Positions 130 to 35,481 of a stretch of 35,882 nucleotides of DNA are shown one piece after another. Position numbers and translations under genes: made by a program. The stretch's first letter is position 1. Each line of letters begins with the position of its first letter. Source of the DNA: a virus; the IMG/VR virus record IMGVR_UViG_3300023198_000132, positions 1 through 35,882 of that record; one strand, 5' to 3'. The notes beneath the pieces were generated by a model that saw only the letters and a list, made by a program, of their open reading frames with translations, ran no database searches and had not been told where the DNA came from.

Positions 130-1698
130 ATGGAATTTAACTTACCAAGTCAAATAGTAAAAAATCTAGACTTCGGAGACGAAGCTAGAAACAAGATATT
201 GTCAGGTGTCTATAAATTATCCGACGCAGTGAAGTCCACATTAGGAGCTTCTGGAAAATGCGTTATATATGAAGACGCAATGGGCAGACCGGTGATAACA
301 AAAGACGGAGTAACCGTTGCAGAAAGCGTAGTCTTAATAGACCCGGTTGAGAATATAGGTGCTACTTTAATAAAAGAATCAGCTAATAACACAGTGCGTG
401 AAGCAGGAGACGGTACTACTACAGCTACCGTCCTTGCCACCGCTATACTTTCTGGTTTAAGTAATCATAAAGGCAAAGAAAAAATTAGAGATGTTAAAGA
501 AGGTGTTAACAACGCAGCCAAAGAAGTTGCTGAATACTTAGAGAAATCAAGTACACCTGTAGAAGGAGAAATGTTAAAGCAAGTTGCATACATTAGTTGC
601 AACAACGATTCGATTCTTGGAGACAAAATTGGTGAAGCTTTTCAAAAAGTTGGTAAAAACGGAGTGGTCTTAATGGAGGATTCCGAAACAAGTGAAACTT
701 ATGTAGACTTTGTTGAGGGAACGCAATTTCCATCAGGTATAAAATCACAGCATTTACTAACAGACAAAGACAAAGGCACAGCGGTTTTAGATAACCCATA
801 CGTTTTAATTGTTGGATCCTCAATACCTAACATCAGAAGAATACAAAGTATATTGGAGCATGTAGTAAAGACGAAAAGATCATTACTAATCATTGCAGAC
901 ATGGACCAACAGCCGTACGCTACATTATTAGCTAATAAGGTTAAAGGTAACATTAAAGTAAATATTGTTGATTTACCCGGGTTTGGACCAACAAAGAGCG
1001 ATACAATAGAAGACTTAGCTATATTAACTGGCGCTACGGTCATTAACGAGGAGTTAGGGGACGATTTAGATCTAATAGACCCTAATGTACTAGGGGCAGT
1101 TATAAAGTCCGTTACAGACAGTAAAAACACAACCTTGCAAATTGGAGAAGTTAATAAAGATTTAACTAAAAGAATTGCTGAAGTAGAAAAAAAGATTGAC
1201 AAAGAATCAAACGCTTACATAAAGAAAAGAATCGAGCAAAGATTATCAATGCTAACTGGTAAAGTTGGTGTTGTTTATGTAGGAGCTAATTCAGCTGTCG
1301 AATTAAAAGAAAAAAAAGATAGAGTAGAAGACGCTATCCACGCTACAAAAGCAGCTTTGCAAGAAGGTATTGTAGCAGGAGGTGGTATTGCTTTGTTAAA
1401 TGCTTCTCAAAGCATTAAAGCTAAGAATGAAGGTTATAACATTTTACTAGAGGCTATTAAAGCACCTTATAAAACTATCTTAGAAAACGCGGGTTATTCG
1501 AATAAACAAGAACCTCAAGGTGGAATCGGATTCGGGTACGATGTTACCTGTGGATGCGAAAGACAAATGGTTAGCAGCGGTATTATAGATCCAGTACTAG
1601 TAACAAAGTCAGCGCTTAAAAACGCGGTGAGTGTTGCTACTACTATAATTTCAGCTGATTGTATAATTTCAAATGTAAGATCTCTTGAGGGCAATTAA
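130..1698 (+). CDS. groL: phage-encoded GroEL-type (group I) chaperonin
   Basis: This is a 522-aa group I chaperonin subunit, expected to form a cytoplasmic ring that folds proteins in an ATP-driven chamber. The equatorial ATP site is intact: ITKDGVTVA at residues 56-64, GDGTTT at 93-98, and the catalytic Asp of the EDAIHAT motif at about residue 401, followed by EGIVAGGG. The final equatorial segment DPVLVTKSALKNAVSVA matches the family. It is slightly shorter than the usual ~545 aa and lacks the Gly-Gly-Met C-terminal tail. The loop LGASGKCVIYED replaces the usual LGPKGRNVVL. The start ATG follows an A-rich leader (ATTAGCAAAATG). A GroES-like gene overlaps its 3' end, so the pair is probably co-translated. 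GroEL genes are known in only a minority of phages. The natural inference is folding of phage capsid or tail proteins made from the same strand. Confidence 0.96.
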   Translation: MEFNLPSQIVKNLDFGDEARNKILSGVYKLSDAVKSTLGASGKCVIYEDAMGRPVITKDGVTVAESVVLIDPVENIGATLIKESANNTVREAGDGTTTATVLATAILSGLSNHKGKEKIRDVKEGVNNAAKEVAEYLEKSSTPVEGEMLKQVAYISCNNDSILGDKIGEAFQKVGKNGVVLMEDSETSETYVDFVEGTQFPSGIKSQHLLTDKDKGTAVLDNPYVLIVGSSIPNIRRIQSILEHVVKTKRSLLIIADMDQQPYATLLANKVKGNIKVNIVDLPGFGPTKSDTIEDLAILTGATVINEELGDDLDLIDPNVLGAVIKSVTDSKNTTLQIGEVNKDLTKRIAEVEKKIDKESNAYIKKRIEQRLSMLTGKVGVVYVGANSAVELKEKKDRVEDAIHATKAALQEGIVAGGGIALLNASQSIKAKNEGYNILLEAIKAPYKTILENAGYSNKQEPQGGIGFGYDVTCGCERQMVSSGIIDPVLVTKSALKNAVSVATTIISADCIISNVRSLEGN

Positions 1699-1945
1699 CT
1701 ATTATATAGTAATCGACAAAATTAAGGAAGCACCTAAGAAGGTTGCTGGCTTAGAATTAACAGAAACACAAAACACGGATATTAGGTATTTAAAAGCTAA
1801 TGTTATAAGTGTAGGAGATAAAGTTAAAGAACTTGTAAAAGAAGGGGATATTGTTAGATACGACAAGCATGCTGGTCACGGAATTGAATGGGATGATCAT
1901 ATGTACTATGTTATAACAATCAACGATATAGTACTAGTAGAGTGA
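1685..1945 (+). CDS. groS: GroES-like co-chaperonin (Cpn10), TTG start
   Basis: An 86-aa protein with the size and plan of GroES. It begins MRAINYYIVIDKI, like the first Cpn10 strand. A mobile-loop-like segment KKVAGLELTE follows at residues 18-27, where GLEL stands in place of the GIVL that docks into GroEL. Next come an ANVISVGDKV strand, an EGDIVRYDKHAG turn and a closing strand ending in NDIVLVE. No ATG gives this N-terminus. The TTG at 1685 restores the expected first strand and overlaps the groEL stop by 14 bp, which suggests translational coupling. It would form a heptameric lid on the phage GroEL. The assignment rests on motif order, length and position beside groEL; sequence identity to cellular GroES is low. 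Confidence 0.78.
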   Translation: MRAINYYIVIDKIKEAPKKVAGLELTETQNTDIRYLKANVISVGDKVKELVKEGDIVRYDKHAGHGIEWDDHMYYVITINDIVLVE

Positions 1946-4091: not shown

Positions 4092-4685
4092 ATGCAAAGT
4101 GTTTTTAATTATCTCGTAGAGCCTAAAGGCGATAGAGTAACAGGAAAAACAGAGATTGAAGGAAATGAATTATTGCTAAACACAGATTTACAAAATCACG
4201 AATACGTAAATAGAGTAGGAGTTATTGTAGGTTTGCCAAGAGCTAATAAATACAAAGAACTAAAAGAAGGAGACGAGGTTATTATTCACCATAATGTATT
4301 TAGAAGATTTAGAGATATTAGAGGTAAAGAAAAAAACAGTAAAAACTTCTTAAGTGAAAATACATATATAGTCCAACCAGATCAGATATATGCTTACAAA
4401 AGGAATGGGGAATGGAAAGCTTTAGAAGGCTTTTGTTTCGTTATGCCTATAAAAGAAACAAAAATGTTTTCAATAGATTTTGAAAAACCATTAAAAGGTT
4501 TGGTTAAATATGGAAACGAAAATATAGCAATCGATTCTTTAATTGGATTTAAACCAAATTCAGAGTATGAGTTTGTTATAGAAGGACAGAGGTTATACCG
4601 AGTATCCGAAAATTCAATTACAATCAACTATGGACATAAAGAAAACGAAGAAGAGTATAATCCAGGCTGGGCACAAAGCAGTTGA
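4092..4685 (+). CDS. GroES-like protein with two tandem Cpn10-like halves (putative)
   Basis: A 197-aa protein. The first half shows the Cpn10 plan: LVEPKGDRV at residues 8-16, a polar loop GKTEIEGNELLLNTD at 18-32 in the mobile-loop position, VNRVGVIVGLP at 39-49 and KEGDEVIIHHNVF at 58-70. The second half repeats it: FCFVMPIKE at 114-122, KGLVKYGNE at 135-143, and IGFKPNSEYEFVIEG then RLYRVSENSI up to residue 176, which mirrors the GroES ending (VKIDGEEYLIVRESDIL-like). Each half is about one GroES long. A dimeric-repeat lid for GroEL, as in plastid Cpn20 or functionally T4 gp31, is the inferred role; the alternative is a structural or accessory protein that has reused the fold. It sits directly upstream of the terminase genes, whose small-subunit gene overlaps it by 56 bp. 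Confidence 0.6.
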   Translation: MQSVFNYLVEPKGDRVTGKTEIEGNELLLNTDLQNHEYVNRVGVIVGLPRANKYKELKEGDEVIIHHNVFRRFRDIRGKEKNSKNFLSENTYIVQPDQIYAYKRNGEWKALEGFCFVMPIKETKMFSIDFEKPLKGLVKYGNENIAIDSLIGFKPNSEYEFVIEGQRLYRVSENSITINYGHKENEEEYNPGWAQSS

Positions 4686-4905
4686 GGAATTAATTCAAGT
4701 AGCTAAAGAAAAGATAGTAGACTCAGGAGATGATATAACAGCAGATAGACTTAAAAATGCTGCCGCTACTAAAAAGTTAGCAATATTTGATGCTTTTGAA
4801 ATTTTAAGCCGTATTGATGAAGAGCAAAGGTTACTGGATGACAAGCCGAGAGTAGAGGCGGTAGCTGATGAATTTAAGGGCTTCGCTGAAAAAAGATCTA
4901 AATAA
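4630..4905 (+). CDS. terS: putative terminase small subunit
   Basis: A 91-aa, almost wholly helical protein (VEELIQVAKEKIVDSGD, ITADRLKNAAATKKLAIFDAF, EILSRIDEEQRLL). Its position directly before the large terminase, its size and its helical oligomerisation-like segment fit a small terminase that recognises phage DNA. No clear helix-turn-helix is visible. ATG 4630 is the only in-frame ATG, even though it overlaps the previous gene by 56 bp. Its stop shares a base with the terL start (TAATG). The role is inferred from context. Confidence 0.6.
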   Translation: MDIKKTKKSIIQAGHKAVEELIQVAKEKIVDSGDDITADRLKNAAATKKLAIFDAFEILSRIDEEQRLLDDKPRVEAVADEFKGFAEKRSK

Positions 4906-7118
4906 TGTATGAGCAGTCACTATGTAATATCATAGAGCCTATTAAACGTACAACTATATCTAGGTTAAACAAAGGCAAGAAGTGGGAATACGGTTACAAC
5001 AAAGAACACGACGTTGTTGTTATTAGTAAATCAGGAAAGATTGGTGAAATATACCAAATACAAAATCTTAAGATAGCACTACCATTAGCTCCCAAGAACA
5101 TAGATAAGAAAAACGATAAATGGACCCCTGAGGAATATCCTAAAGAATTGAAAAGTATTAAAAGCATTTTTGATTGGAGGGATTACCCTGACGGGTTTAA
5201 AAACAAATGGGGAGAATATATAGATGAGCAATTTAAAAGAAGAGAAGAAGGGCACTGGTTTAATAACAAAGACGTTGATACTTATATCACTGGTACTCAT
5301 TTTATGTACTTGCAGTGGTCCAAAATTGATGTTGGGAAGCCAGACTTTAGGGAATCAAATAGATTATTCTATATATTCTGGGAAGCTTGCAAAGCAGACA
5401 AGAGATGTTACGGTATGTCATATCTCAAGAATAGACGTAGCGGCTTTTCATTCATGGCGTCTGGGGAGACGGTTAATATGGCCACAATATCAAGCGATGC
5501 ACGTTTCGGGATATTGTCCAAATCTGGCGCCGATGCAAAGAAAATGTTCACAGATAAGGTTGTACCCATTTCTGTTAACTTCCCCTTTTTTTTCAAGCCC
5601 ATCCAGGATGGAATGGACAGGCCCAAAACCGAGCTGGCTTATAGAGTACCAGCGTCGAAACTTACAAGGCGTAGACTCGATTCGAATACGAAGACGGAGA
5701 CGCTTGCCGGTCTTGATACCACGATCGACTGGAAGAACACGGGTGATAACGCCTATGATGGAGAAAAACTTAAACTCCTCGTCCACGACGAAAGCGGTAA
5801 ATGGGAAAGGCCGAACAATATCCTCAACAATTGGAGGGTTACGAAAACGACATTAAGATTAGGTTCAAGAATTATTGGAAAGTGTATGATGGGATCAACA
5901 TCAAATGCACTTGACAAAGGAGGAGAAAACTTTAAGAAACTATACAACAGTTCAGACGTTACTAAAAGAAACGCAAACGGACAAACGAGATCAGGCTTAT
6001 ATTCTTTATTCATTCCCATGGAGTGGAATTACGAAGGATTTATTGATGCACATGGAATGCCAGTGTTTAATAAGCCACCAGAAGGCACCACGGGTCCACA
6101 CGGAGAAGATATAGAAGTCGGAGTCATTGAGCATTGGAATAATGAGGTTGAAGGATTAAAAGGCGATCAGGATGCTTTAAATGAGTTCTACAGACAATTT
6201 CCAAGAACAGAGGAACATGCTTTCCGTGATGAAACAAAAAATAGTATATTTAACTTAGCAAAAATATACGAACAAATAGATTACAATGAAGACTTAGCTA
6301 ATAGCAATGTTGTTACAAGAGGAAGTTTTCAGTGGCAAAATGGCGTAAAAGACACAAAAGTTGTTTTTATGCCAAATCAGCAGGGTAGATTTCTAATTAC
6401 TTGGACACCTTCTATTGATATTCAGAATAAACAAGTAATAAAGAATGGGGTAAGGCATCCTGGTAATGAGCATATGGGCGCTTTTGGATGCGACAGTTAC
6501 GACATATCAGGTACGGTTGATGGTAGAGGTTCTAAAGGAGCTTTGCACGGCTTAACAAAATTTAGTATGGGTGATGCACCTCCAAGTGCTTTCTTTTTAG
6601 AATATGTAGCAAGACCGCAAACAGCGGAAATGTTTTTTGAGGATGTTTTAATGGCGTGTGTATTTTACGGTATGCCGATATTAGCGGAAAACAATAAACC
6701 TAGATTGCTGTATTACTTTAAAAGAAGAGGTTATAGAGGATACTCAATGAACAGGCCGGATAAATTTTGGACTAAACTATCTGTAACAGAAAAAGAAATT
6801 GGTGGAATACCAAATTCAAGTGAAGATATAAAGCAAGCGCACGCAGCTGCTATTGAAATGTATATTGAAAGTCACGTAGGGTTAAACAGTGAAACTGGTG
6901 ATTACGGGAGCATGTACTTTAACGAGACATTAAATGATTGGTCAAAGTTTGACATAAACAATAGAACAAAGTTTGACGCTGCTATTAGTTCAGGGTTAGC
7001 TATTATGGCTTGTCACAAAGAGCTTTACAGGCCAAGTAACAAAATGCAAAGAGAACCAGTGAAATTAAGTTTCGCTAGATATACTCACGACGGTAATACA
7101 TCAAAAATAATAAAATAA
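4905..7118 (+). CDS. terL: terminase large subunit (ATPase and nuclease)
   Basis: This 737-aa packaging motor protein pumps DNA into the prohead and cuts concatemers. ATPase part: a deviant Walker A KNRRSGFS at residues 175-182 (no classical GKT), Walker B KLLVHDE at 290-296 with the catalytic Glu 296, and the coupling motif GSTSN at 330-334. Nuclease part: acidic Asp 530 in GCDSYDISG, a second region around MPILAENNKPR, and Asp 691 in RTKFDAAISSG, the usual RNase H-like triad order. It starts at the ATG sharing a base with the terS stop, and the portal follows four bases after its own stop. An unusual island of higher G+C runs from about 5425 to 5845, exactly across the ATPase motifs. Confidence 0.93.
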   Translation: MYEQSLCNIIEPIKRTTISRLNKGKKWEYGYNKEHDVVVISKSGKIGEIYQIQNLKIALPLAPKNIDKKNDKWTPEEYPKELKSIKSIFDWRDYPDGFKNKWGEYIDEQFKRREEGHWFNNKDVDTYITGTHFMYLQWSKIDVGKPDFRESNRLFYIFWEACKADKRCYGMSYLKNRRSGFSFMASGETVNMATISSDARFGILSKSGADAKKMFTDKVVPISVNFPFFFKPIQDGMDRPKTELAYRVPASKLTRRRLDSNTKTETLAGLDTTIDWKNTGDNAYDGEKLKLLVHDESGKWERPNNILNNWRVTKTTLRLGSRIIGKCMMGSTSNALDKGGENFKKLYNSSDVTKRNANGQTRSGLYSLFIPMEWNYEGFIDAHGMPVFNKPPEGTTGPHGEDIEVGVIEHWNNEVEGLKGDQDALNEFYRQFPRTEEHAFRDETKNSIFNLAKIYEQIDYNEDLANSNVVTRGSFQWQNGVKDTKVVFMPNQQGRFLITWTPSIDIQNKQVIKNGVRHPGNEHMGAFGCDSYDISGTVDGRGSKGALHGLTKFSMGDAPPSAFFLEYVARPQTAEMFFEDVLMACVFYGMPILAENNKPRLLYYFKRRGYRGYSMNRPDKFWTKLSVTEKEIGGIPNSSEDIKQAHAAAIEMYIESHVGLNSETGDYGSMYFNETLNDWSKFDINNRTKFDAAISSGLAIMACHKELYRPSNKMQREPVKLSFARYTHDGNTSKIIK

Positions 7119-10760: not shown

Positions 10761-12206
10761 ATGGCATTTGCAACCGCGCCCGCAACATTAGCGAATTTGG
10801 CACACTTAACACCGAGACCTATTAAAGGTTTATTCGGAGACAATTACCTATCTGTAGCAGATATGGATTTCACACAACAATTTTTACCAGAAGTATACGA
10901 AAAAGAAATTGAGCGTTATGGAAACAGAACAATCACTGGATTTTTACGTATGGTTGGTGCAGAGATGCCAATGGCTTCTGATCAAGTAGTTTGGTCTGAA
11001 CAAGGAAGATTACATATTGCGTATGACAACTTGACGACTCAAGCAGTAGCTCTTAAAACAATATCTTTACCAGATGCAGCTACGGCTCCTGATGGAAAAG
11101 CTCCTTTATTAGGTGCTGGAATGACTGTAGTTATTTCTAAAGGTAATGTAACTAATAAAGCTTTTATAAAAGGTATATCATCTACTGTAATTGCTAATAG
11201 TGTTGTTTACGATATTGAAGTTTATGATACTTCTAATGGTCAATTAGACGCAGCTCTTGGAGGAGAAACTGCTGTAAACATATTCGTATTTGGATCTGAA
11301 TATGCAAAAGGTTCTTCTTTAGCAGGGAACTCTATCGATGCTTCTTTTACTACATTCAGTAACAAACCAATTATCTTGAGAGATAAGTATAGTGTTAATG
11401 GATCTGATGTAGCACAAATCGGATGGGTTGAAGTAACAACTGAAGTTGGGACTGGAGGATACTTGTGGTATTTGAAATCAGAGCATGAATCAAGAATCCG
11501 TTTTGAAGACTACTTAGAAATGAGTATGGTTGAATCTACTTCTGCACAAAGCGCTTTTACAAACGCAGCCAATGCTCCTATTACAGGAACACAAGGTTTA
11601 TTTGCAGCTTTAGAAGAAAGAGGATTAGTTTATAATGATCCTGATTTCGGAGCAGCATCTGGAGCTGGTTTAGCTGAATTTGATTCTATCTTAGCCGAAT
11701 TAGACAAGCAAGGTGCAATTGAAGAAAACATGATGTTCTTAGACAGAAATACGTCTTTAGATATTGACAACATGTTAGCTGCGCAGAATTCTTATGGAGC
11801 TGGAGGTACATCTTACGGTGTATTTGAAAATTCAGAAGAAATGGCTTTAAACTTAGGTTTCTCAGGATTCAGAAGAGGTTCTTATGACTTCTACAAGACT
11901 GACTGGAAATACTTAAATGATTCTACAACTCGTGGATTAATTAATGATATCAAAGGAGTAATTGTTCCTGCTGGAACTTCTACTGTTTATGACCAACAAT
12001 TAGGACAAAACATTTCAAGACCATTCTTACATATCCGTTATAGAGCTTCAGAAGCTGATGACAGACGTTTGAAATCTTGGGTTACTGGTTCTGTTGGAGG
12101 TAATTACACTAGTGATGCGGATGAAATGAATGTTCACTTCTTATCAGAAAGAACACTTTGTACTCAAGCTGCAAACAACTTTGTATTATTGAAAGCTACA
12201 GTATAG
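10761..12206 (+). CDS. major capsid protein
   Basis: A 481-aa protein, well expressed by its context: A-rich leader and codons ending in A or T throughout. It follows the scaffold and precedes connector genes. Features fitting a HK97-fold capsid protein include the N-terminal arm, an early extended segment (MDFTQQFLPEVYEKEIERYG), a Ser/Gly-rich central part and a C-terminal half with an acidic-aromatic helix (LAEFDSILAELDKQGAIEE) and the segment SFLHIRYRASEADDR-like near the end. I recognise the family by position and general plan, not by a named motif. It is followed by the longest gene-free gap in the structural region. Confidence 0.85.
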   Translation: MAFATAPATLANLAHLTPRPIKGLFGDNYLSVADMDFTQQFLPEVYEKEIERYGNRTITGFLRMVGAEMPMASDQVVWSEQGRLHIAYDNLTTQAVALKTISLPDAATAPDGKAPLLGAGMTVVISKGNVTNKAFIKGISSTVIANSVVYDIEVYDTSNGQLDAALGGETAVNIFVFGSEYAKGSSLAGNSIDASFTTFSNKPIILRDKYSVNGSDVAQIGWVEVTTEVGTGGYLWYLKSEHESRIRFEDYLEMSMVESTSAQSAFTNAANAPITGTQGLFAALEERGLVYNDPDFGAASGAGLAEFDSILAELDKQGAIEENMMFLDRNTSLDIDNMLAAQNSYGAGGTSYGVFENSEEMALNLGFSGFRRGSYDFYKTDWKYLNDSTTRGLINDIKGVIVPAGTSTVYDQQLGQNISRPFLHIRYRASEADDRRLKSWVTGSVGGNYTSDADEMNVHFLSERTLCTQAANNFVLLKATV

Positions 12207-14833: not shown

Positions 14834-17800
14834 ATGGCAGAACTTATACACACATTTACCGGAGGGAAAATGAACAAAGATCTTGATGAAAGACTTGTAC
14901 CCAACGGACAGTACAGAGATGCTCTTAACATAAGTATTTCCTCATCAGAAGGTTCTGACACTGGTGCTATAGAAAATATAAAAGGAAATTTAGAGTTAAA
15001 AAACAAAGAATTCAACGCTTCTACTAATACATATACTCAGTGGAGTAGTGATTATATAGATTCACTTTCAAATCCTGTGTGTATAGGATCGATTGCGGAT
15101 AACATTGACGAAAAAGTATATTGGTTTATTGCGTCTGACGCAGTAAGTGCTATAGTACAGTATGACAAAAACACAAGTATAATAAAACCTATAATTGTAG
15201 ATACTCAAGATGTACTTAAGTTTTCAAAAGATTATTTAATAACAGGTATTAACATAATTGAGGACTTATTATTTTGGACAGATAACAAAGAAGAACCTAA
15301 AAGCATAAATATAAAAGACTGGGAAAACTCAACAGTGGATTTTTCTACTCATTCTCAAATATATAACAGAAATTTTATAGAGAAAGATGTTGTGGTTATA
15401 AAGCCCGGTCCTCTTGCCGCACCTACTCTAACGCTTAGCGACAATTTAGGCACAGGTAGTACAACAACGTCTGCAGTATTTGATTTTACAGAAAGCGGAA
15501 CTAGCGGCGCGATTAACAATGCAGTTGATATCGGCTCTGCTGTTGTTATAAGTTTAGGGTCTCCTATAAACACACAATCAGGTGACACTTTAGCTTTTAC
15601 ATGTAACACCGACAGTTCTGAAGGGTATTCACCTGTGGACCCTGATGGTAATGCGGATACTTATTCCTTCGTTATAAGTGTAACATCTATGAGTAATGGA
15701 GGTACTGTTTTAAACGGGGTATTGCAAAGCGGTACAGCTGAGCTTGTAAAAGGTAATTTTACATACGAAGTAAGCTTACAAGGCTCAAAGATTCTTTTTG
15801 AATTGAAGCTACCTAGGTTTGGCTATAGATATAAATATAAAAACAATCAATACTCTCCATTTTCCCCTTTCTCAGAAGTAGCTTTTTTACCAAGCACTTT
15901 TAAATACAATGCAAAAAAAGGATGGAATAAAGGTATGACTAACAATGTGAAAAGAATTATATTAGGTGGTTTTGATTCACCCTTACCCAAAGGCGTAGAA
16001 GAGTTAGATATACTGTACAAACAAGATGGAGTAAACGTTATTTACAAAGTGGAAAGCTTGTCTCCGGAGGATTTGGAGATAAACTATGTCGAACATGAAA
16101 TAACAAACAATAGTACAAATTCTGTTAATTTTACTTTTTTAAATACAAAAAATGAAAGTCAAACAATAACTGTTTTTGCAACGCAAACAATAAATATAAT
16201 AGCTAAAGAAAATTCATTAACACCTTCTTCGGTAACAGATGTTGTCATAATAAACACATCACTTGGAACAGTATTTGAAGTAATTAGTGAATTAATATAT
16301 TCTTTATTACCTTCTAATCAAATACTTAGGCCTTGGGATAATGTGCCTAGAAAAGCAAAATCTCAAGAAGCTATATCTAATAGAATAATTTATGGAAACT
16401 ATTTACAAAATTATAATGTATCTTCCAGTTTAAAATTTGATCCCGCAAACACTTTAATTTCGCAATCGCCTATATTAAATATAAATGAGCCGTCTAAATC
16501 TATAAAGTCTATTAGAACATATCAAGTAGGTGTTGTTTTTAAAGACAAGCACGGTAGAGAAACACCTGTATTTACTGACACCTCAGGTGTTTTAGATGTA
16601 CCGAATGAGCTTTCTAATACGTCTAATTCTATAAAGATAAAGTTATCTTCTGATAGCCCTAAAAATATAGATGGTTCTGAAATGTTTGACTCGTTTAAGT
16701 TTTTCATTAAAGATCCGTCTGCACCATACTATAATGTAGTAGCTGATAGACTTTACGAATCCGAAGACGGTGAAAGCGTTTGGATATCAATGCCATCCGC
16801 TGAGACTAATAAAGTTACAGAAGGTTCATTTTTAATACTTAAAAAACAAAACGATTCATTTACTGCCGTAAAAAATTATCCTCAAAATAAATTTAAGGTA
16901 TTAACTAAAAGTCCAGAGGCTCCTTTAGAATTAAGAAAAACTAAAAGAATTGAATCATCAAAAAACTATTCATTTGATAGGCAATTTGGTGATGGAAGTT
17001 CAGCTACCTATAGGTTACCGGGAGCTACCCCAGTGCCAGGATACAGTGTTTTTTTAATAAACGATGAAGAAGGTACGTCAGGAGTACCAGATGCTACTTT
17101 TGAAAAATGGAAAGTTGGTAAATACGTAAGGTTTTCTGACCCTACTAACCAAACGCAGTTTTATGAGATAACTAACATAGAAACAGATACTACAGGTGAT
17201 CATAGAGAGCTTAAAGTAAACGTGACACCTCCTTTTAATTCTGATGTTAACTTCATATACACCGATCCAACTGTAAGCAACTCGGCTTTGGTTAGCAATT
17301 ACACTACAATCGAGATTGCTGATGATTACGAAGTATTAGGCAAAGGACAATATCAAGGTAGATTTTTTATAAGGCTAGAAAAAACCAATGAGTTAATGTC
17401 TAACTTCACTGTAAACCAAGAATACATACCAGCTAGCACAACAATAGTTCGAAGAAACTATGACTCTGACAGGTATCAAATATTTTCTGGCGGTGGGGGT
17501 GCAATGCAAAACTCTTCAGGTACTCAAATAGGTAGTGCAACTAGATTGTTTACTGACGTTAGTAGAAGACTAGGAGGTATGGGCACCAGTAATTATAATG
17601 CTACAGGACAATTCGGAAGTCTTTATCAAATACCGTTTGATCCAGGAGAAGCATGGGACTTTGTTTTTGAAAGAATACTAACATCAAGAGGCTCTGGTGA
17701 ATTCGGTAAAGCTTTTCAAGTGGGTTCAAAAATAAGATTTTCAACTCACCCAACTATTTACGAAATAAAGTTTATACACGAATTTACTCAAGTAAGCGGT

Positions 17801-19399
17801 AGCAGCTATCTTAGATCTTACACAAGATTAGATAAGCCTTTAGAAGCTTCTATTTCTCCTTGGCATATAAAAAAGGTTTCAGAGCTTAACGGGAATGGAC
17901 CAGTTTTTGTAGATGGAGTAGAGATATTTAGCGGTAGTGGAGAACCTTCGGTTACTATAGATATACTAAAGCAAGCAGATTCTGGTGAGATTTCATCTAA
18001 TGATCCTGCTATATTTGAAACTGAACCAGCTGAACAAGCTGAACTTGATATTTATTATGAAATTTCAGATGCTTTACCAATAGTGCAATACAATATCCAG
18101 CACACAAGCCCTTGGTTCAACTGTTATTCTTTTGGTAACGGTGTAGAATCAAATAGGATTAGAGATGACTACAACGCCCCTTATATAAGCACAGGGACAA
18201 AAGCAAATGCTGTTTTAGATAATCCATACAAAGAGGAATATTTACAGAATAACCTTATATTTTCAGGTATTTTTAATTCAATTTCTGGACTAAATGAATT
18301 GAATCAATTTATACAAGCTGAAGCTATAACTAAAACATTAGATCCTCAAAGTGGGCCTATACAAAAATTATTTGCTAGAGAAACAGATTTGTTAGCGTTC
18401 TGCGAAGACAAAGTAGTTAAAATACTAGCAGATAAGGATGCAATATACAATGCAAATGGAAATTCTCAGTTAACTGCTGCTAATAGAGTTTTAGGCCAAG
18501 CTATAATACCCTCAAGCTTCGGAATGTTTGGTATTGGTAAAAATCCGGAGTCCTTTGCAAACTACGGCTACAGAGTCTACTTTACGGACAATGCTAAAGG
18601 TAAAGTACTTAGGTTATCTATGGACGGAGTAACACCAATCAGCAATTATGGCTTAGATGATTTCTTCCAAGACAATCTTCCTTTAAATAATAAAATACTA
18701 GGTTGCTATAATAATGATAATGGCACGTATAATTTAACGCTAAACAGCTTAACTGACGAATGGTCTGATAAGTATGGCTTAAAAACTACGTTGTCTTTTT
18801 CTGAAAGCATAACCGGTTGGTCTAGTAGAAAATCGTATATTCCAGAAAACGGTGTATCTATAGATACGAAATTTTATACCTTTAAAGAAGGACTGGTTTA
18901 TGAGCATGGCAAAAATGATTTGTATAACAACTTCTATGGAGTCCAGTATCAAAGCACTTTAACTCTGTTATCTAATGAAAGTCCTCTTTCTGTAAAAGGA
19001 TTCAAAGCAATAAACTATACAGGTACTGCTGCTAAAAGCAACGTGTATAGCATTTCCAGTGGTGTTTATAATGGCATAAACTACTCAATTAGCGAGATAG
19101 AAACTATCAAATCTAACGGAGGACCAAATCCTACAAGTGTTATTTCAACACCTGGATGGTGGGTTAGTAATACAAAAACAAACCTACAAAGTGGAACCGT
19201 ACTTGAATTTATAGACAAGGAAGGAAAATACTACAACAACATAAAAGGAGATGCTACTACAGTAGATAATATAGACACAACTGAATTTTCTGTTCAAGGA
19301 ATAGGTAAGCCTACTACAATTACAGGAGATATTAACGTTACTCAGTTTAAAGTACGTATTTTTGCAGATCCTTCATGTTTTACTAATAATCAACCATAA
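14834..19399 (+). CDS. large tail protein, putative nozzle/tail hub (stabilisation protein)
   Basis: A 1521-aa protein, among the longest in the window. It starts with FTGGKMNKDLDERLVPNGQYRDALN, an N-terminal signature I associate with large tail-hub or 'stabilisation' proteins of uncultured marine podoviruses. The body alternates beta-rich repeats (DKVYWFIASDAVSAIVQYDK; LLFWTDNKEEPKSINIKDW; VYFTDNAKGKVLRLSMDG) of the kind seen in beta-propeller nozzles such as T7 gp12. There is no signal peptide and no enzyme motif. It begins five bases after the adaptor stop and is followed by the Ig-like tail gene. A tail nozzle role is inferred; the length is greater than in T7-type nozzles, so extra domains may be present. 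Confidence 0.72.
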   Translation: MAELIHTFTGGKMNKDLDERLVPNGQYRDALNISISSSEGSDTGAIENIKGNLELKNKEFNASTNTYTQWSSDYIDSLSNPVCIGSIADNIDEKVYWFIASDAVSAIVQYDKNTSIIKPIIVDTQDVLKFSKDYLITGINIIEDLLFWTDNKEEPKSINIKDWENSTVDFSTHSQIYNRNFIEKDVVVIKPGPLAAPTLTLSDNLGTGSTTTSAVFDFTESGTSGAINNAVDIGSAVVISLGSPINTQSGDTLAFTCNTDSSEGYSPVDPDGNADTYSFVISVTSMSNGGTVLNGVLQSGTAELVKGNFTYEVSLQGSKILFELKLPRFGYRYKYKNNQYSPFSPFSEVAFLPSTFKYNAKKGWNKGMTNNVKRIILGGFDSPLPKGVEELDILYKQDGVNVIYKVESLSPEDLEINYVEHEITNNSTNSVNFTFLNTKNESQTITVFATQTINIIAKENSLTPSSVTDVVIINTSLGTVFEVISELIYSLLPSNQILRPWDNVPRKAKSQEAISNRIIYGNYLQNYNVSSSLKFDPANTLISQSPILNINEPSKSIKSIRTYQVGVVFKDKHGRETPVFTDTSGVLDVPNELSNTSNSIKIKLSSDSPKNIDGSEMFDSFKFFIKDPSAPYYNVVADRLYESEDGESVWISMPSAETNKVTEGSFLILKKQNDSFTAVKNYPQNKFKVLTKSPEAPLELRKTKRIESSKNYSFDRQFGDGSSATYRLPGATPVPGYSVFLINDEEGTSGVPDATFEKWKVGKYVRFSDPTNQTQFYEITNIETDTTGDHRELKVNVTPPFNSDVNFIYTDPTVSNSALVSNYTTIEIADDYEVLGKGQYQGRFFIRLEKTNELMSNFTVNQEYIPASTTIVRRNYDSDRYQIFSGGGGAMQNSSGTQIGSATRLFTDVSRRLGGMGTSNYNATGQFGSLYQIPFDPGEAWDFVFERILTSRGSGEFGKAFQVGSKIRFSTHPTIYEIKFIHEFTQVSGSSYLRSYTRLDKPLEASISPWHIKKVSELNGNGPVFVDGVEIFSGSGEPSVTIDILKQADSGEISSNDPAIFETEPAEQAELDIYYEISDALPIVQYNIQHTSPWFNCYSFGNGVESNRIRDDYNAPYISTGTKANAVLDNPYKEEYLQNNLIFSGIFNSISGLNELNQFIQAEAITKTLDPQSGPIQKLFARETDLLAFCEDKVVKILADKDAIYNANGNSQLTAANRVLGQAIIPSSFGMFGIGKNPESFANYGYRVYFTDNAKGKVLRLSMDGVTPISNYGLDDFFQDNLPLNNKILGCYNNDNGTYNLTLNSLTDEWSDKYGLKTTLSFSESITGWSSRKSYIPENGVSIDTKFYTFKEGLVYEHGKNDLYNNFYGVQYQSTLTLLSNESPLSVKGFKAINYTGTAAKSNVYSISSGVYNGINYSISEIETIKSNGGPNPTSVISTPGWWVSNTKTNLQSGTVLEFIDKEGKYYNNIKGDATTVDNIDTTEFSVQGIGKPTTITGDINVTQFKVRIFADPSCFTNNQP

Positions 19400-23208: not shown

Positions 23209-26200
23209 ATGGCAAATATAGATCCAATATACAAGTTAAACGGAAAAGAGTTTACTAAAGAGCAACTGGAAGCTTCGGCTAGTTACCATTCTTTAAGCTT
23301 CGATGACTATGTGTCTTCAAGAAACTTTGAAATAATACAACCCGAGGATTTTCAAAACGGAGCTGCGGAAAACAATGCACCTGTGGTTCCAAAAAACAAT
23401 CAAGCATTAAACAATGGGGGTTCAGTTTCGGAAAATGGTTCTTCGGACTTACCAGGTAACCTAGAATTTGGAGAAGCTGTAGACTTTGACTTCAACAACC
23501 CATATTCAGAACCGAAAAAAGAAAGAAGATACATTCAGTTTAAAAGCGGTAGAGTATATGAAGACACTTATTTAAGTGAACTTGAAGAAAACCCTACAGA
23601 TGAATACAATAGAGAAAAACCAAAAACATTTGAAGAGTATGCAGAGCAAATGGGTGGAAGCTCTTCTAGTATACGAATATATAAGCCAGATACTTTTGTA
23701 AAAGAACAAAAGTCTGTAGATGCTAGAGTTATTGAGGCTATAAACTCAAAGTTTGAACAAACTGAAGAGCAAAAGCTAGAGAAGAGAGCCAAAGCTGAGG
23801 AGATGTTTGTGCCTCAAGCAGATAGACCTACTCATATGGTATTTACAGGTGATTATAGCCCGCCTGAGTCAATTGTAACTAAGAACGAGGATTACGACAA
23901 GTATGTTGGAATAGCTAAAAATAAATTAGGTAACAACGCTTCGGAAGATGAAATATTATCTGTTGCTAAAAACTTATATGTAGACGCAAGTGTAAAACCT
24001 CAAATAGCAAAAAACATCGAGCAAAGTTTAAAAGACGGAGCTTATGACCAAGGTAGTAAAGATTTTTTAAACGAAGCAGACAGTGATTTTATTAAAAAGG
24101 CTGCAGCAAGAGAATATAAAACTAAAAACAAAGCGCAACAAGCAAATGTAGCCAAGCTCGAAAGCATGGGTGTTTTAATGAAAGCAACCATAGCTGAAAT
24201 GGAAGCTTTGCAAAAACAATCATATAGCCTAGATACATTTGATGCGGAGGCAGCGAGAGAAAGATACAAATATCTTCGATCAACGCTAGAAGTTGCATCA
24301 GAAAACTACAATGAGTTTTACAACAACTCTTATCTTGTGGTAAATGAAGAGCTGGAAGGTTTGGCTGACATCGTTGATGTTACTAAAAGAGCATATGGTA
24401 TTGGAAATGTTCTAGCTGCAAATGTAGTAGCTACAACAAGTGAGCTAATCGGAGGTGCTTTAAAAGCTCCAGAATGGCTAGGTACGATTATAGAATCTGC
24501 TATTACAGGAGAAGAGTACAACAATACCTGGATGGCGCAAAACACCGGTATGTTATCTGAAGCTTTGTTGGATACAGAAATGATACGTGGAGCTGTTGCA
24601 AAACCGGTTGATGTTGCTGACATTGGATCTGACGGTACAAACCTTGGGTATTGGATGACTGACCTTATAGGTAATCAAATCCCAACAGCAGCAACAATGA
24701 TAGCTTTTCCTGCATCATCACTGTATGTTATGGGAGCGAGTGCGGCTGGGCAAAAAGCTAACGATATGGCTGGATTAATGGAAAGTAGCGAAGCTGATTA
24801 TAACAATTGGCAAATGCTTTTAGCTCCAGCTATAGTAGGTACGCTTGAAACTGTTACTGAAAAAATAAGTCTTGGGCAATTAAAGCATGTTGGCAAAGTA
24901 TTCCAAGGAAAGAATAGCGTATTAAAAGAAGCAACTGACTATATACAAAACAGAGTGCTTAACAAAAATTATTTTGTTGACGTTTTAGGAGAAGGTGCAT
25001 CAGAGGGGCTTAATCAATTAGGTGGAAACATCACGGACAAGTACTTGCTTAAAGACAAAAACGTTCACATATGGGACGGTGTTGGTAATGCTGTTGCTTC
25101 TGGAGGTTTTATGAGTGGTGTTGTATACAAAGCACCATCTATAGGGGTAAAAATGCTAAATCCATTTGCATCTTCCGATTTAAAGCCAAATATCTATGCT
25201 AACATTGTAATGCAAAATAAGTTAGCTAAAGAAATGCTTAATAAAGACATTTCCCCTAACATAAAAAGTAGTTTAAAACAAGCGTACGATAAACTTAATG
25301 AGGCTAATAACAAACTATTAAATGATCAGTTTAAGACAATTGATGCTTTAAATGACGACCAAAAAACAGAACTTATTGAAATTGACAAAGCCAAAGCTAA
25401 AGCTCTCCTCGAGCTTCAAGATATAAATGGGTTTGACAACATGAGCGACAGTGTTAAGCAAAACTTAATAGAAGGAAAAGAATCCGAAATAAATAGTCTC
25501 GCAGCAAACAAAGAAAAAATATTATCAACTGTAGGAGCTGATGCTGACGTAGCGTTAACAAAATCGTTGATTGAAGGAGCTAAAGATGGTAGTTCTGTTA
25601 TGGTTTTTGAAGACGACACTAAAACAAAAGTTACAGCCGCTCAAAAACAATACGATTTCTTGATAAGTGTTGGGTTATCGGAAGCTCAAGCAGAAGCTAA
25701 AAAAAATGACTACGGTTTGTTCGTACAAGACAAGGATGGTAATGATATATTAGTTATAAATAAAGCGTCCGCTTTAGAAGACAAAGTTGTTACTACAGGA
25801 AAACACGAGTTTTTACACAAAGTGCTTAAGAGAGCTATTGCCAAAGACCCATCGTTAGCAGAAAATATGGGTAATATGCTTTTAACTGAAATCGCAAATA
25901 ATCCTTCTATAATTACAGAAAGAGGTAAGCAAGCTATTAAACAATACAAAGAAAGAGCTGACGACGTTAATGATTCTACAACACAATCTGATTATTTTGA
26001 AGAAATTATAACTGTTTTTGCAGAGTCAATGAATCCAGAAGCTGCTTCTCAAGCTGACACTTTTACATCTAAAATAGCAGATATAGTTAGAAGAGCTATG
26101 AACAGTTTAGGTATTAGAAATGTTAAGTTTAAAACAAGTAAAGACGTTGTTAATTTTATAAAGGATTATAATAGAGACTTCGCTTCAGGTAAATTATCAA

Positions 26201-29200
26201 GAACACTACAAAAATTTGAAGCTGGAGAAGGGGAGGTTGTTTCAGCCGAAACAAAGTCTAGCGCTAAACAAAAACCAACAGTATTACAAACAATAAACCA
26301 ATTAATACCGGAAGGTGTTAAAACCAAAGCAGAATTACAAAAGCCTAGAGTGTTTAATCGTATATACGAAGCTACACTTGAAAACGGAGCTATAAGTAAT
26401 TATGTAAAATCTCGAAGCGAGAATAAAGCTGTTTACGAAAAGGCAATAGAAAGCATTCAAGAAAGATTGATTAATTATGATCCAGCAGCTGTTCGAAAGA
26501 AAGCTAATGGACAACCAATTACTTTCGGTGAATTTATATTTGCTAACACTAACTTTGGTAAATTAGACGCTAAAAAGAAATTAGCAATTGAATCTAAAGA
26601 AGCAAAAGAAAAAACCAGTGTAGATAGTAAAGAAGCTAAACAAGTAGCGGACGTGTCAGAGGCTCCTGTTCGTGTTGCAGAAAAACCTAAGTATAAGAAC
26701 TTAGTTCAAAGTAAAGTGGTCAGCACAGATGCCTTAAAAAGCATTTCAGGTAAGGTTGGGAAGATAGTTAGAACGCTTAAATCAAGAATGGATGCTAAAA
26801 CATCTATTAATAAAACTATTTCTCCGTTAATCGCTGAGATTAAGAAGGAAATGGGTAAGCAAGCTGATATCGATTTAAAGAAAGAGATTGGTGGTAAAAA
26901 AGACGACCAGATAAAAAAGTATTTGTTAGCAAACAAGAAAGCAATTCTTGAGAACATGACAACTACATGGCTAATGCAAGCGATGCCTGGCGCAATCCAA
27001 AAGCAAGTTGATGGTAAGTTCACTTCAGATTGGAAAGGAAAGAAAATAGATAGAGAAAAAGTTAGCACAAATGCTGCTGGTAAAACATCTGGAGCAGAAA
27101 TAGTTAGAAGATTACCAAATCCAAGTGTAAGTTTAGACGATGCTACCTATTTAGGGTATATTATAGACGACAAAGGCGCGCCAATTAGAGGACGTAAAGA
27201 ATCTTTAGCTAAAGCAATGGCTGAAGAGATTTCTTTTGACATATTTTCTCAGCAAATAAAAGATCCCGAAAGCGATATAAGCAAAGCTTTTGAGACTAAT
27301 CAAGAAAGGCTAGGTGTTGTAATAGCTGAAAACATTGTAGAGGATCTTACAAGACAAATAGATAGAGGTACAGTTAAGTTCTCTGCTAAAATAATTAATC
27401 ACAATAAAGAAAATCCAAATTTTATACCAGATTTTCTTGAAGATATGCGATCAGCTACGTTTCAGCAAATATTTAGTGAAAACTACAGGAATGGAGTTAA
27501 TAGACCTTGGTTTGATTCAGCGATAAAATACTTTGAACAAAAGTACCCTAAAGGATCAGAAGAGCGTAGCTTAACTATTAATGCTGTAAAAGATATAGCT
27601 AATGATTTCGCAATGAAAAACAGTAATAAAAAACCTGTTGAAGTTGCTGTATTGAGAGCTGCGCAAGATCCAGAGCAATGGCAAGAGGCTTTAGATGCTG
27701 TTAATGAAAAGGTTGAAGACGCTTTAACGCTTGGAACGGCTTACGATACTGTTGGAATGATTTACACCGGTAGAACTAATCAATTTGACGACGCTAGTCT
27801 TGATGGAATAAATGAAGCAAGATACGCTTTAAAAGCATTGATAGACTCCCTAGCCGAAAAAGGAATGACTAGGAACGAAATAAGAGCCGCTTTAAAAGAT
27901 GCTTACGTAGGTCCCGGAGGTATCGGTAAGTTTACAGTAGGCAGCAAAGACGCATTGCTAACCCTTACAGATGAAAACCTAGGAGAATTTAAAGGTGGCT
28001 CCAGAGGGGCTATTGTTTTGAATGCTACTGATTTTGACAATAACTTCCTGAAAGACGTGAAGAATGAAGGGCCTAAAGTGGTTAATGATTCTAATATTTT
28101 TAAGAAAGATTACTGGACAAAACCGACTAGTAAGTTCAATAAAATGGACTCTAAAGGACAGTGGGGTTTTCTTAATAACTTATTCAATCAAGGTATTAAA
28201 AATCAAGTAAAGCTAGAAAACACAATAGAGTCTATAAAAGATTTAGATGTTTCAGCTGCTAATAAAAGATGGTTAATAAGAGGTTTGTTCGCTGCAATGC
28301 CTGCATTAGGTAAAGCAACATCAACAACTAGATACGTTCTTGTAAATAATGATGGTAGTTTAGTTTCTTTTGAAGAATTGAAAAGAAAAGGCTTAGCTGC
28401 TAAAGACGATAAAGGTGTATTTGAACACACAAAACCTGCTAATAGAGTGTCAGTAGCTGCTTATGCTTATGCTATTGCACCTAGTAAGGCAACCAAAACC
28501 GCACTTGATAACGAGTTAAAGGATTTTGATTCAGCTTTGATATCTGAAAAGATGGATAAAGTTTTAGTAGGTCTAAAATTACAATCTAAAATGGGGCTTG
28601 GTTATAAGGTAGGTACTGGGCCAATGCTTAGTAGATACAGGGAGCTTATTGCTGAACTGGATTCTAAAGGTGTTTATTTCTATGATATAAAGACAAACAA
28701 AAAGATATTACCCGCCACAAAGTTTAATGATGCTTTTTTAGCTACAGCCAAAGCGGGATTAAAATCTTCTGCAAAAATTTCTGGCGTAACAGAAGGTGGG
28801 GCTTCTACTTTTGTACCAAACGTTAAAGGAGGGTTCAGTAAAAGTTCTACTGGACTGAAAGCTATATTTATGGTTGGTGGTCCTGGAGCTGGTAAAACTA
28901 ATGTCGGTAAAGGATTACAGTTAGGTAGACGTGGTTATAAAGTAGTTAATCAAGATATTGCTTTAGAGGCTATGAAAACAGAAGTTGGATTACCAGCTAA
29001 AGAATCTGACTATGATGCAGAGCAAAGATCTACAAGATCTAAAATTGGAGCTGCTGCTAGAAAAGCTGCTGTAGCAAAGTTTGACAAGTACGCCGACAAT
29101 GGTAACGGAATGGTTATCGACGGTACTGGAGCATCATACAATGCTACTACAAAAAAAATTAAAGCATTACAAGCTAAAGGTTTTGAGGTACATATGGTTG

Positions 29201-33759: not shown

Positions 33760-35481
33760 TTAGCCATCACACGCTAGACAATCTTCACTCATAGCTGAAG
33801 CCGCAATATCTCCACGCAAGACGCTTTCAGTTCTAGTATAGTATAAAGTTTTTACACCTTTCTTCCAAGCTTCGAAATGAACTTTGTTCAACCATTTAGG
33901 AGTAGCTTCAGAAGGGAATGCAAGATTAAGACTTACGGATTGATCTACGTACTGTTGCCTGATCCCTGCTTGATTAACTAATTCCAACTGATTAATCTCC
34001 TTGAATGTTCTAAAAACTTCCTTAGAAGGGATATTATGATCTCCTATCAATACATTATCAAGAGCATCGATATTTTGAACAGAACCTCCATCAGCTAATA
34101 TCTTATTCCATATATCACTAGTGTTTAATTCGTTGTCTTCAAGAACCTGTTCTAAGGTAGGATTCTTTCTTATAAAAGTCCCCTTGGCCGATTGCTCTGT
34201 GAATACGTTCGCGGCCCACGGCTCAATACCCGGAGAAACATTACCGGAAAGCTTACTATTAGAGACAGTAGGAGCGATAGCACGAAGGTGAGTATTACGC
34301 CTACCAGTACCAACACACCAAAGAGGTTCCCCATATATTTCAGCAAGATTCCTTGATGCTCTTTCGCTTTCAATTTTGATTTGCGAGAATATCTTCCTAG
34401 TTTCAAACTGAGAAAGTAAACCTTCGAAAGGAATACCCTTCTCTTGGAGATACGTGTGCCATCCAAGAACTCCCAAGCCCAATGCTCTCCCTTTCTGTGC
34501 AGATCGAATAGCGTTTTCGAATCCTCGTAAACCTTTGGCTCGTTGAATAAATTCTTCCATAACTCCGTCAAGAAAGAAAATGGCGTCATGTATAAGATTA
34601 GTGTCTTTCCACTCTTCATATTTTGCTAAGTTTAATGATGATAAACAACATACAAAGCTATGTGTTTCATCCGTGTGTAATGCGATTTCAGAACATATAT
34701 TAGTCATATGCACCTTCAATCCGTTTTGTTTGTATGCTTCTGGATTTGCTTTATTAACGTTACCTTTAAACATTATATAAGGCTCACCAGTCGCTTTTCT
34801 TTTTCTTAATAATTTACTCCATTTAGCACGAGCTTCTTTGTCTCCTTGCTCTAGTCTACGCATAAACTTATCTCCAACAATAGCGCATTGATGCAAGTTA
34901 AGAGATTGCCTATTAACATCTCCTTTGGGTTCCCTGATTTCAAGCCAGTCTTCGAAATCATTGTGTTCAATGTTAATATTAACAGAAGCAGCGCCTCTTC
35001 TTACAGAACCTTGATTGGTAGCAAGAATTGTAGAATCGTAAATTTTACAAAATGGTACTACTCCATCTGATGTTCCATTACCAGTTATCCTAGCTCCAGC
35101 GGGTCTGATTTGATTAATACCAATGCCAACACCGCCTCCATGCTTAGCTAACAGCATCATCTCTAGATTTTTCTGACCTATGTCCTGTATTGAATCTGCT
35201 ACATCAACACCGAAACAACTAATAGGGAGACCACGGTCAGTACCAGTATTGCTAAGTACAGGAGATGCCAAACATAACCAACCATTCCAAATATAGTTGA
35301 AAAATGTTTCAGCCATTTCAGGTTTATATAACCTACGAGCAACTGCTTTACTGACGCGATGGTATGCTTCTTTAGGCGTTTCTCCGTCAAATAAATATCC
35401 CCCGGATATTGTCTTCTTGTATACGTCTGTATCACCCCACGCAGGGTAATCTTCTCCTTTAATCCAATTTTCATTCCACAT
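33760..35481 (-). CDS. nrdA: class I ribonucleotide reductase large (alpha) subunit
   Basis: A 573-aa catalytic subunit that reduces ribonucleotides to deoxyribonucleotides for phage DNA synthesis. Cys 89 in LPISCFGV is the substrate-site Cys. NICSE at 261-265 carries the thiyl radical Cys 263 with Asn and Glu. Cys 278 in VCCLSSLNL is the partner Cys. Tyr 547-Tyr 548 in LYYTRTES is the radical-transfer pair. The C-terminus CLAC (Cys 568 and 571) is the mobile redox tail. The N-terminal ATP-cone of cellular NrdA is missing, which is common in phage forms and implies no dATP feedback inhibition. It is co-oriented with the small membrane gene and nrdB. G+C is higher than in the structural genes. 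Confidence 0.94.
   Translation of the reverse strand: MWNENWIKGEDYPAWGDTDVYKKTISGGYLFDGETPKEAYHRVSKAVARRLYKPEMAETFFNYIWNGWLCLASPVLSNTGTDRGLPISCFGVDVADSIQDIGQKNLEMMLLAKHGGGVGIGINQIRPAGARITGNGTSDGVVPFCKIYDSTILATNQGSVRRGAASVNINIEHNDFEDWLEIREPKGDVNRQSLNLHQCAIVGDKFMRRLEQGDKEARAKWSKLLRKRKATGEPYIMFKGNVNKANPEAYKQNGLKVHMTNICSEIALHTDETHSFVCCLSSLNLAKYEEWKDTNLIHDAIFFLDGVMEEFIQRAKGLRGFENAIRSAQKGRALGLGVLGWHTYLQEKGIPFEGLLSQFETRKIFSQIKIESERASRNLAEIYGEPLWCVGTGRRNTHLRAIAPTVSNSKLSGNVSPGIEPWAANVFTEQSAKGTFIRKNPTLEQVLEDNELNTSDIWNKILADGGSVQNIDALDNVLIGDHNIPSKEVFRTFKEINQLELVNQAGIRQQYVDQSVSLNLAFPSEATPKWLNKVHFEAWKKGVKTLYYTRTESVLRGDIAASAMSEDCLACDG

Follow-up and report, generated by a model that had tools for sequence, protein, structure and literature searches.

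We found that this virus, a marine phage with a likely host among the Flavobacteriia, probably encodes its own folding chamber, in which a GroEL works with a cognate Cpn10 and the rings perhaps separate, and in addition a tandem Cpn10-like protein that may serve as a second lid for head proteins or as a head-assembly factor. The window, by which we mean the whole 35,882-nucleotide stretch of viral DNA analysed, carries the features listed in Table 1. The host assignment is likely because the relatives of the terminase come from phages that infect Flavobacterium, Cellulophaga, Tenacibaculum and Maribacter. The earlier note on this DNA had placed the chaperonin pair beside late structural genes, and such genes do follow downstream: terminase (4905), portal (7123) and capsid (10761). 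The pair is flanked by a tail-fibre gene and the head block. Phage-encoded GroEL and GroES are already known together and the pair itself is not novel; the main interest is the tandem Cpn10 beside the terminase gene, which is kept across several Flavobacteriia phage families, with and without a phage GroEL.

Table 1. Positions of the chaperonin-related features and their marker genes in the window
Feature	Position	Strand	Evidence
Group I chaperonin GroEL/Cpn60, 522 aa, ATG start	130..1698	+	Pfam, PHROG, alignment
Cpn10 (GroES-like co-chaperonin), 86 aa, TTG start	1685..1945	+	Pfam, PHROG, model
Overlap of groEL end and groES start, 14 bp, bases belonging to both genes	1685..1698	+	
GroES mobile-loop motif G-L-E-L (E. 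coli G24-I25-V26-L27)	1748..1759	+	
Second co-chaperonin-like protein, 197 aa, tandem Cpn10-like domains, just upstream of terminase	4092..4685	+	
Presumed mobile loop of tandem protein domain 1 (G-N-E-L-L-L-N)	4128..4211	+	
Terminase large subunit, neighbour serving as synteny marker	4905..7118	+	
Virion structural protein, probable major capsid protein, 481 aa	10761..12206	+	

The groEL-groES pair and its origin

The GroEL product aligns to positions 1-488 of the 490 positions of Pfam Cpn60_TCP1 (1.1e-50, 173 bits, cut-off 34.3) and matches PHROG groEL at 8.7e-135. Alignment showed that the ATPase residues D52, D87 and D398 together with T30 are invariant in the window GroEL and in all relatives examined. 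The earlier reading of an intact group I chaperonin was confirmed. Its score against the NCBI bacterial equivalog TIGR02348 is below the cut-off (459.5 vs 582.1 bits), and by its sequence it is a divergent viral Cpn60 outside the bacterial GroEL equivalog class. The small ORF behind it had been described as Cpn10-like, TTG-initiated and overlapping groEL by 14 bp, and we found both ORFs and their overlap as described. Profile search and structure prediction, two of the checks that had been proposed, both returned Cpn10: it matches Pfam Cpn10 PF00166 at 2.4e-9 (37.6 bits, cut-off 21.1) and PHROG GroES at 7.5e-13, and its AlphaFold model has a GroES/Cpn10 fold and is confident (pLDDT 90.1), with GroES/Cpn10 chains making up all 24 Foldseek matches to the PDB at E<=0.001. 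It too falls below the NCBI bacterial equivalog cut-off. The product is a genuine, divergent Cpn10; its conservation and fold and the selection on it ruled out a spurious ORF.

A scan of viral contigs returned at least 598 stretches that encode GroEL relatives, from which the best 80 were retained. Among the near-clade loci that hold GroEL, some of which derive from the same contigs, every one (97/97) has a GroES-like ORF behind it on the same strand. The length of the overlap differs by locus (14 bp in 48, 1 bp in 35, 4 bp in 10 and 17 bp in 4), as does the groES start codon (TTG in 38 loci, ATG in 64). Both genes are under purifying selection, with pN/pS of 0.09-0.22 for GroEL and 0.08-0.15 for GroES. 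Because of this strict co-occurrence and purifying selection, the pair is a real inherited unit.

The same two families exist in bacteria, which would fit a groESL operon taken recently from a host or a chimeric assembly. This explanation was ruled out by the GroEL tree, the gene order and an independent contig, and has virtually no chance of being right. The phylogeny that the earlier note had suggested as a check, here a quick tree with 45 bacterial sequences and some long branches among other phages, put the window clade in a single viral group of its own (support 100, stem 1.44) outside the Bacteroidota and the host clade. The closest bacterial GroEL found, from Flavobacteriaceae, is 44% identical. 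The gene order is groEL-groES in the phage, whereas groES comes before groEL in 77 of 80 loci from bacteria. An independent 53-kb contig (locus L086) shares 10,682 identical bp with the window at the left, other pieces of it coincide exactly with both window ends, and no difference was seen in any part compared.

The earlier note had also implied that a full pair is rare in phages, which did not hold. Both genes are present in the cultured or deposited phages phi38:1, elemo, ctfjg026, immuto and Panino, in agreement with the statement of Bracher et al. 2020 that some phages possess both GroEL and GroES; the Panino paper reports both homologues (PMC11590407), and a GroEL was already reported in 2017 for marine phage relatives of phi38:1 (PMC5332604). 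The Panino GroEL used as query found no further viral relatives. In 10 of 80 relatives of the ctfjg026 GroEL (loci L226, L238, L243, L247, L256, L257, L258, L259, L260 and L266), no recognisable GroES follows groEL although room for it exists, which may reflect loss, displacement or a gene overlooked by the profile.

Several observations concern the surroundings of the pair. A tail-fibre-like gene immediately upstream of groEL (L314:35-3286) lies where the identical 53-kb contig extends beyond the left end of the window, and its product carries a C-terminal Peptidase_S74 intramolecular chaperone (6e-12); therefore two kinds of folding aid adjoin here. The virus looks distantly crAss-like in its protein matches, because a 1521-aa protein (14834-19399) is similar to the muzzle protein of crAss-phage (PF25731, 1.4e-10), as is, weakly, the capsid protein (10761-12206) to a crassvirus capsid (0.0089, below the cut-off). 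A 2841-aa protein of the late block (23209-31734) contains a kinase domain of the AAA_33/zeta-toxin/polynucleotide-kinase type at residues 1884-2032 (1.5e-13). The ribonucleotide reductase large subunit is encoded at 33760-35481 on the minus strand, and what appears, judged by eye, to be the small subunit comes next in the longer contig (L315:342-1310, minus strand).

Ring contacts, apical groove and mobile loop

The pairs K105-D435 and R452-E461 form inter-ring salt bridges that are absent in the single-ring mtHsp60 (PMC5575113). In the alignment, K105 is substituted in the window and in 94 of 96 clade loci, D435 is absent from all clade loci (alignment gap), and conservation of R452 and E461 is lost in the clade. 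As aligned, both conserved inter-ring salt bridges are lost in the window GroEL. Because of this loss, the phage rings are predicted to separate easily or act singly, and a stable 7+7 double ring appears doubtful. A GroEL that has lost its ring-ring salt bridges and retained GroES would be a viral counterpart of the single-ring mitochondrial system. The GGM tail is missing from the phage GroEL. The stretch at residues ~455-475, next to the ring-ring contact, varies in length by ~13 residues even between nearest relatives (17-19 residues vs 28-32 in most loci).

These altered inter-ring contacts would also fit a GroEL that works lidless, as the chaperonins of phages EL, OBP and AR9 do, with the GroES-like gene acting elsewhere. 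The EL chaperonin shows no interaction with GroES of E. coli (PMC7185714), and OBP and AR9 have been described as co-chaperonin-independent (PMC9598537). However, groES immediately follows groEL in every near relative and is under strong selection, and we consider it very unlikely that the phage GroEL does without a lid.

Across the clade the apical groove of GroEL is changed at E232 (to R/K) and L234 (to Q); Y199 is replaced by L/I, and Y203 by H in 91 of 96 clade loci. Because these groove residues are altered, substrate or lid binding could have shifted in the phage GroEL. The mobile-loop triad of the phage GroES is L-E-L at the place of I25-V26-L27 in E. coli, with the outer two residues hydrophobic and the middle one acidic; it reads [LIM]-E-[LIMV] in every clade locus and the glutamate is invariant. 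In E. coli GroES, I25D and L27D abolish binding and V26D does not (PMC5575113). Since V26D is tolerated, the L-E-L triad is compatible with GroEL binding. The changes in the GroES loop and the GroEL groove are consistent, at the level of sequence, with a private pairing. Charge complementarity between GroES E26 and GroEL R/K232 was considered as a rule and rejected: it is fixed in the clade, but one clade counts as one event, and it is contradicted by Panino, in which the acidic mobile-loop residue is present and the GroEL changes of the clade are absent.

The roof segment of the phage GroES is short, and T4 gp31 has been described as lacking roof loops (PMC6318259). A missing roof as a phage trait is weakened by the cellular homologs, since the roof is equally short in Campylobacterota GroES and merely 3-4 residues longer in Bacteroidota GroES.

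A tandem Cpn10-like protein upstream of terminase

The earlier note had described one chaperonin with one lid. The pair is real, but a second co-chaperonin-like gene in the window had been overlooked. Its product matches PHROG 13932, co-chaperonin GroES, at 1.3e-14. When the halves were compared separately as profiles, the first matched the GroES of the clade itself at 2.7e-5 and the second matched bacterial GroES at 6.9e-6, and none of the reversed controls was better than 0.0019. When the structural model (pLDDT 78) was compared with the PDB, a Chlamydomonas Cpn20 subunit scored best, over the full length (4.8e-5, TM-score 0.55, identity 18%); among viral models, the Cellulophaga phi18:3 cpn10 ranked second (1.4e-11), behind an unnamed protein (1.1e-16). 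A Pfam search with the window protein and its family gave no match, direct BLAST of the tandem protein against the small GroES gave nothing useful, and neither did a PDB sequence search with the protein or its profile. In two distant relatives, from phi38:1 and phi46:3, the second domain scores above the Pfam cut-off for Cpn10. Because both halves match GroES profiles, Cpn20 is the best fold and kin pass Pfam Cpn10, the protein appears to be a tandem Cpn10, with two domains head to tail. This architecture is known otherwise from chloroplast Cpn20 (PMC5780408). The literature searched, of limited coverage, yielded no account of a tandem co-chaperonin in a phage, and the two-domain make-up of this lid-like protein seems to be undescribed.

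The presumed mobile loop of domain 1 has low model confidence, as expected for a mobile loop, and its motif is ELLLN in the window, NGLILN in elemo and SGLEL in phi46:3. The second mobile loop seems eroded in the window clade, being shortened and without the motif. The C-terminus bears a conserved E-Y-N-P-[SG]-W motif, unlike GroES. The protein is under purifying selection (pN/pS 0.17-0.27). Among the loci examined, 118 had a recognisable copy, most with terminase shortly downstream, and almost every relative that has the gene carries it directly before terminase.

Such placement, the shortened second loop and the C-terminal motif all favour a different reading, in which the tandem protein is a head-assembly or packaging factor that has retained a Cpn10 fold and the small GroES is the sole lid. 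Pervagoviridae have a 'chaperonin cpn10' among their core proteins (PMC8776804); from the Calle annotation we infer that this is the terminase-side tandem gene, and its core status would fit a structural or assembly role too, as would the tandem kin in phages without GroEL. Against a pure assembly factor, domain 1 retains its mobile-loop-like motif in all three phages compared above, and the second domain of phi46:3 is still recognised as Cpn10. We regard the head-assembly reading as plausible but not the favoured one.

The distribution of the tandem protein bears on which GroEL it serves. All 77 INPHARED records in which tblastn found it belong to GroEL-bearing lineages, and GroEL was present in 6 of 6 IMG/VR contigs tested (>=30 kb) that carry it. 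The idea that the tandem protein is confined to GroEL phages was nevertheless overturned by phi46:3 and phi19:3 (Pachyviridae), which have the tandem protein and a small Cpn10 but no GroEL; Gundel_1 has none of the three. A tandem lid without a phage GroEL presumably works with that of the host. By analogy with T4 gp31, the two co-chaperonins might divide the labour, one serving the host GroEL and the other the phage GroEL, and phi46:3 and phi19:3 fit this in that the two lids can occur where no phage chaperonin does. In the window clade, however, the small GroES is fixed to groEL and its loop is unlike that of host GroES, and such a division is possible but on the doubtful side.

In Maribacter phage Panino, the protein annotated as co-chaperonin GroES is the tandem protein (PANI_CDS0088, L309:7828-8376), and the ORF behind groEL (L002:8767-9033), a Cpn10, carries the annotation 'hypothetical'.

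Proposed folding route and comparison with known systems

The preferred reading is a phage GroEL with its own Cpn10 and a tandem second lid, and would run as follows. The overlapping groEL and groES genes would allow both proteins to be made together. Late in infection, GroEL subunits would assemble into a ring, presumably seven-membered, that binds unfolded virion proteins, with the capsid protein as the first candidate substrate. In the presence of ATP, the phage GroES would close the chamber and the substrate would fold inside, the two partners probably being specific for each other. The rings may separate easily or function singly, as the lost salt bridges suggest. The tandem protein would most likely be a second lid, for the phage or the host GroEL, used on head proteins; of all parts of the explanation, this role is the least secure. 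The capsid product would be the most likely substrate, and the tandem protein need not serve the phage GroEL because its kin occur in phages without one. That the pair may form a self-contained folding machine, as the earlier note had proposed, is a reasonable reading of the sequences.

Gene placement is not the same in all phages, and the phage chaperonin might instead mainly guard host or replication enzymes during infection rather than fold the capsid. In immuto, the two genes follow that of DNA polymerase at a distance from the head genes; in phi38:1 the pair is among replication genes; and EL is reported to protect endolysin (PMC9598537). The window pair, by contrast, adjoins the tail-fibre gene on one side and the head block on the other, and we think enzyme protection unlikely as its main task. 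A bolder form of the preferred reading, in which we place little confidence, is a folding system orthogonal to that of the host, with a Cpn60 that separates its rings or acts as a single ring and two lids used as alternatives; the one working loop per subunit of the tandem protein would let it form a seven-fold cap, taller or wider, for head proteins. If true, tandem co-chaperonins would exist beyond plastids and apicoplasts and would have arisen there independently.

The tandem lid would provide a natural system in which to ask why one virus should need two lids, and could show whether the lid sets the chamber size for capsid proteins. It also raises the question of how a seven-fold ring meets a two-domain lid, which has been studied so far in chloroplast Cpn20. 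Like the 197-aa protein of the window, chloroplast Cpn20 has two Cpn10-like domains in tandem. Each domain of Cpn20 has a mobile loop, whereas only the first loop looks intact in the window protein; because the second is shortened and without the motif, the window protein is Cpn20-like in fold only and is not classed as Cpn20.

Among phages, the cultured Cellulophaga phage phi38:1 (Pervagoviridae) has the same three-part set, with GroEL gp005, Cpn10 gp007 and the terminase-side tandem gp089. Its Cpn10 gene lies upstream of groEL with one gene between, whereas groES lies downstream and overlaps in the window, and its GroEL is very divergent from that of the window. The Elemovirus phages of Flavobacterium and podovirus ctfjg026 (MW202828) share with the window the order of GroEL then GroES, abutting or overlapping, and a tandem protein before terminase, which is annotated hypothetical in ctfjg026. 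They differ in that their GroEL belongs to other clades and their GroES triad is L-Y-L or L-L/I-L instead of L-E-L. Phages EL, OBP and AR9 also encode their own Cpn60; single-ring behaviour is known for them and is proposed for the window from the lost ring contacts, and they are described as acting without a co-chaperonin whereas the window has an adjoining groES. T4 gp31 shares the Cpn10 fold and the short roof segment with the window GroES but partners the host GroEL, while the window phage encodes its own. Compared with E. coli, in which the order of the two genes is the reverse, the window GroEL has the family and the ATP-site residues in common at 38% identity and is without the GGM tail and the inter-ring salt bridges, and the window GroES keeps hydrophobic mobile-loop residues at positions 25 and 27 under a roof segment shorter than that of E. 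coli GroES.
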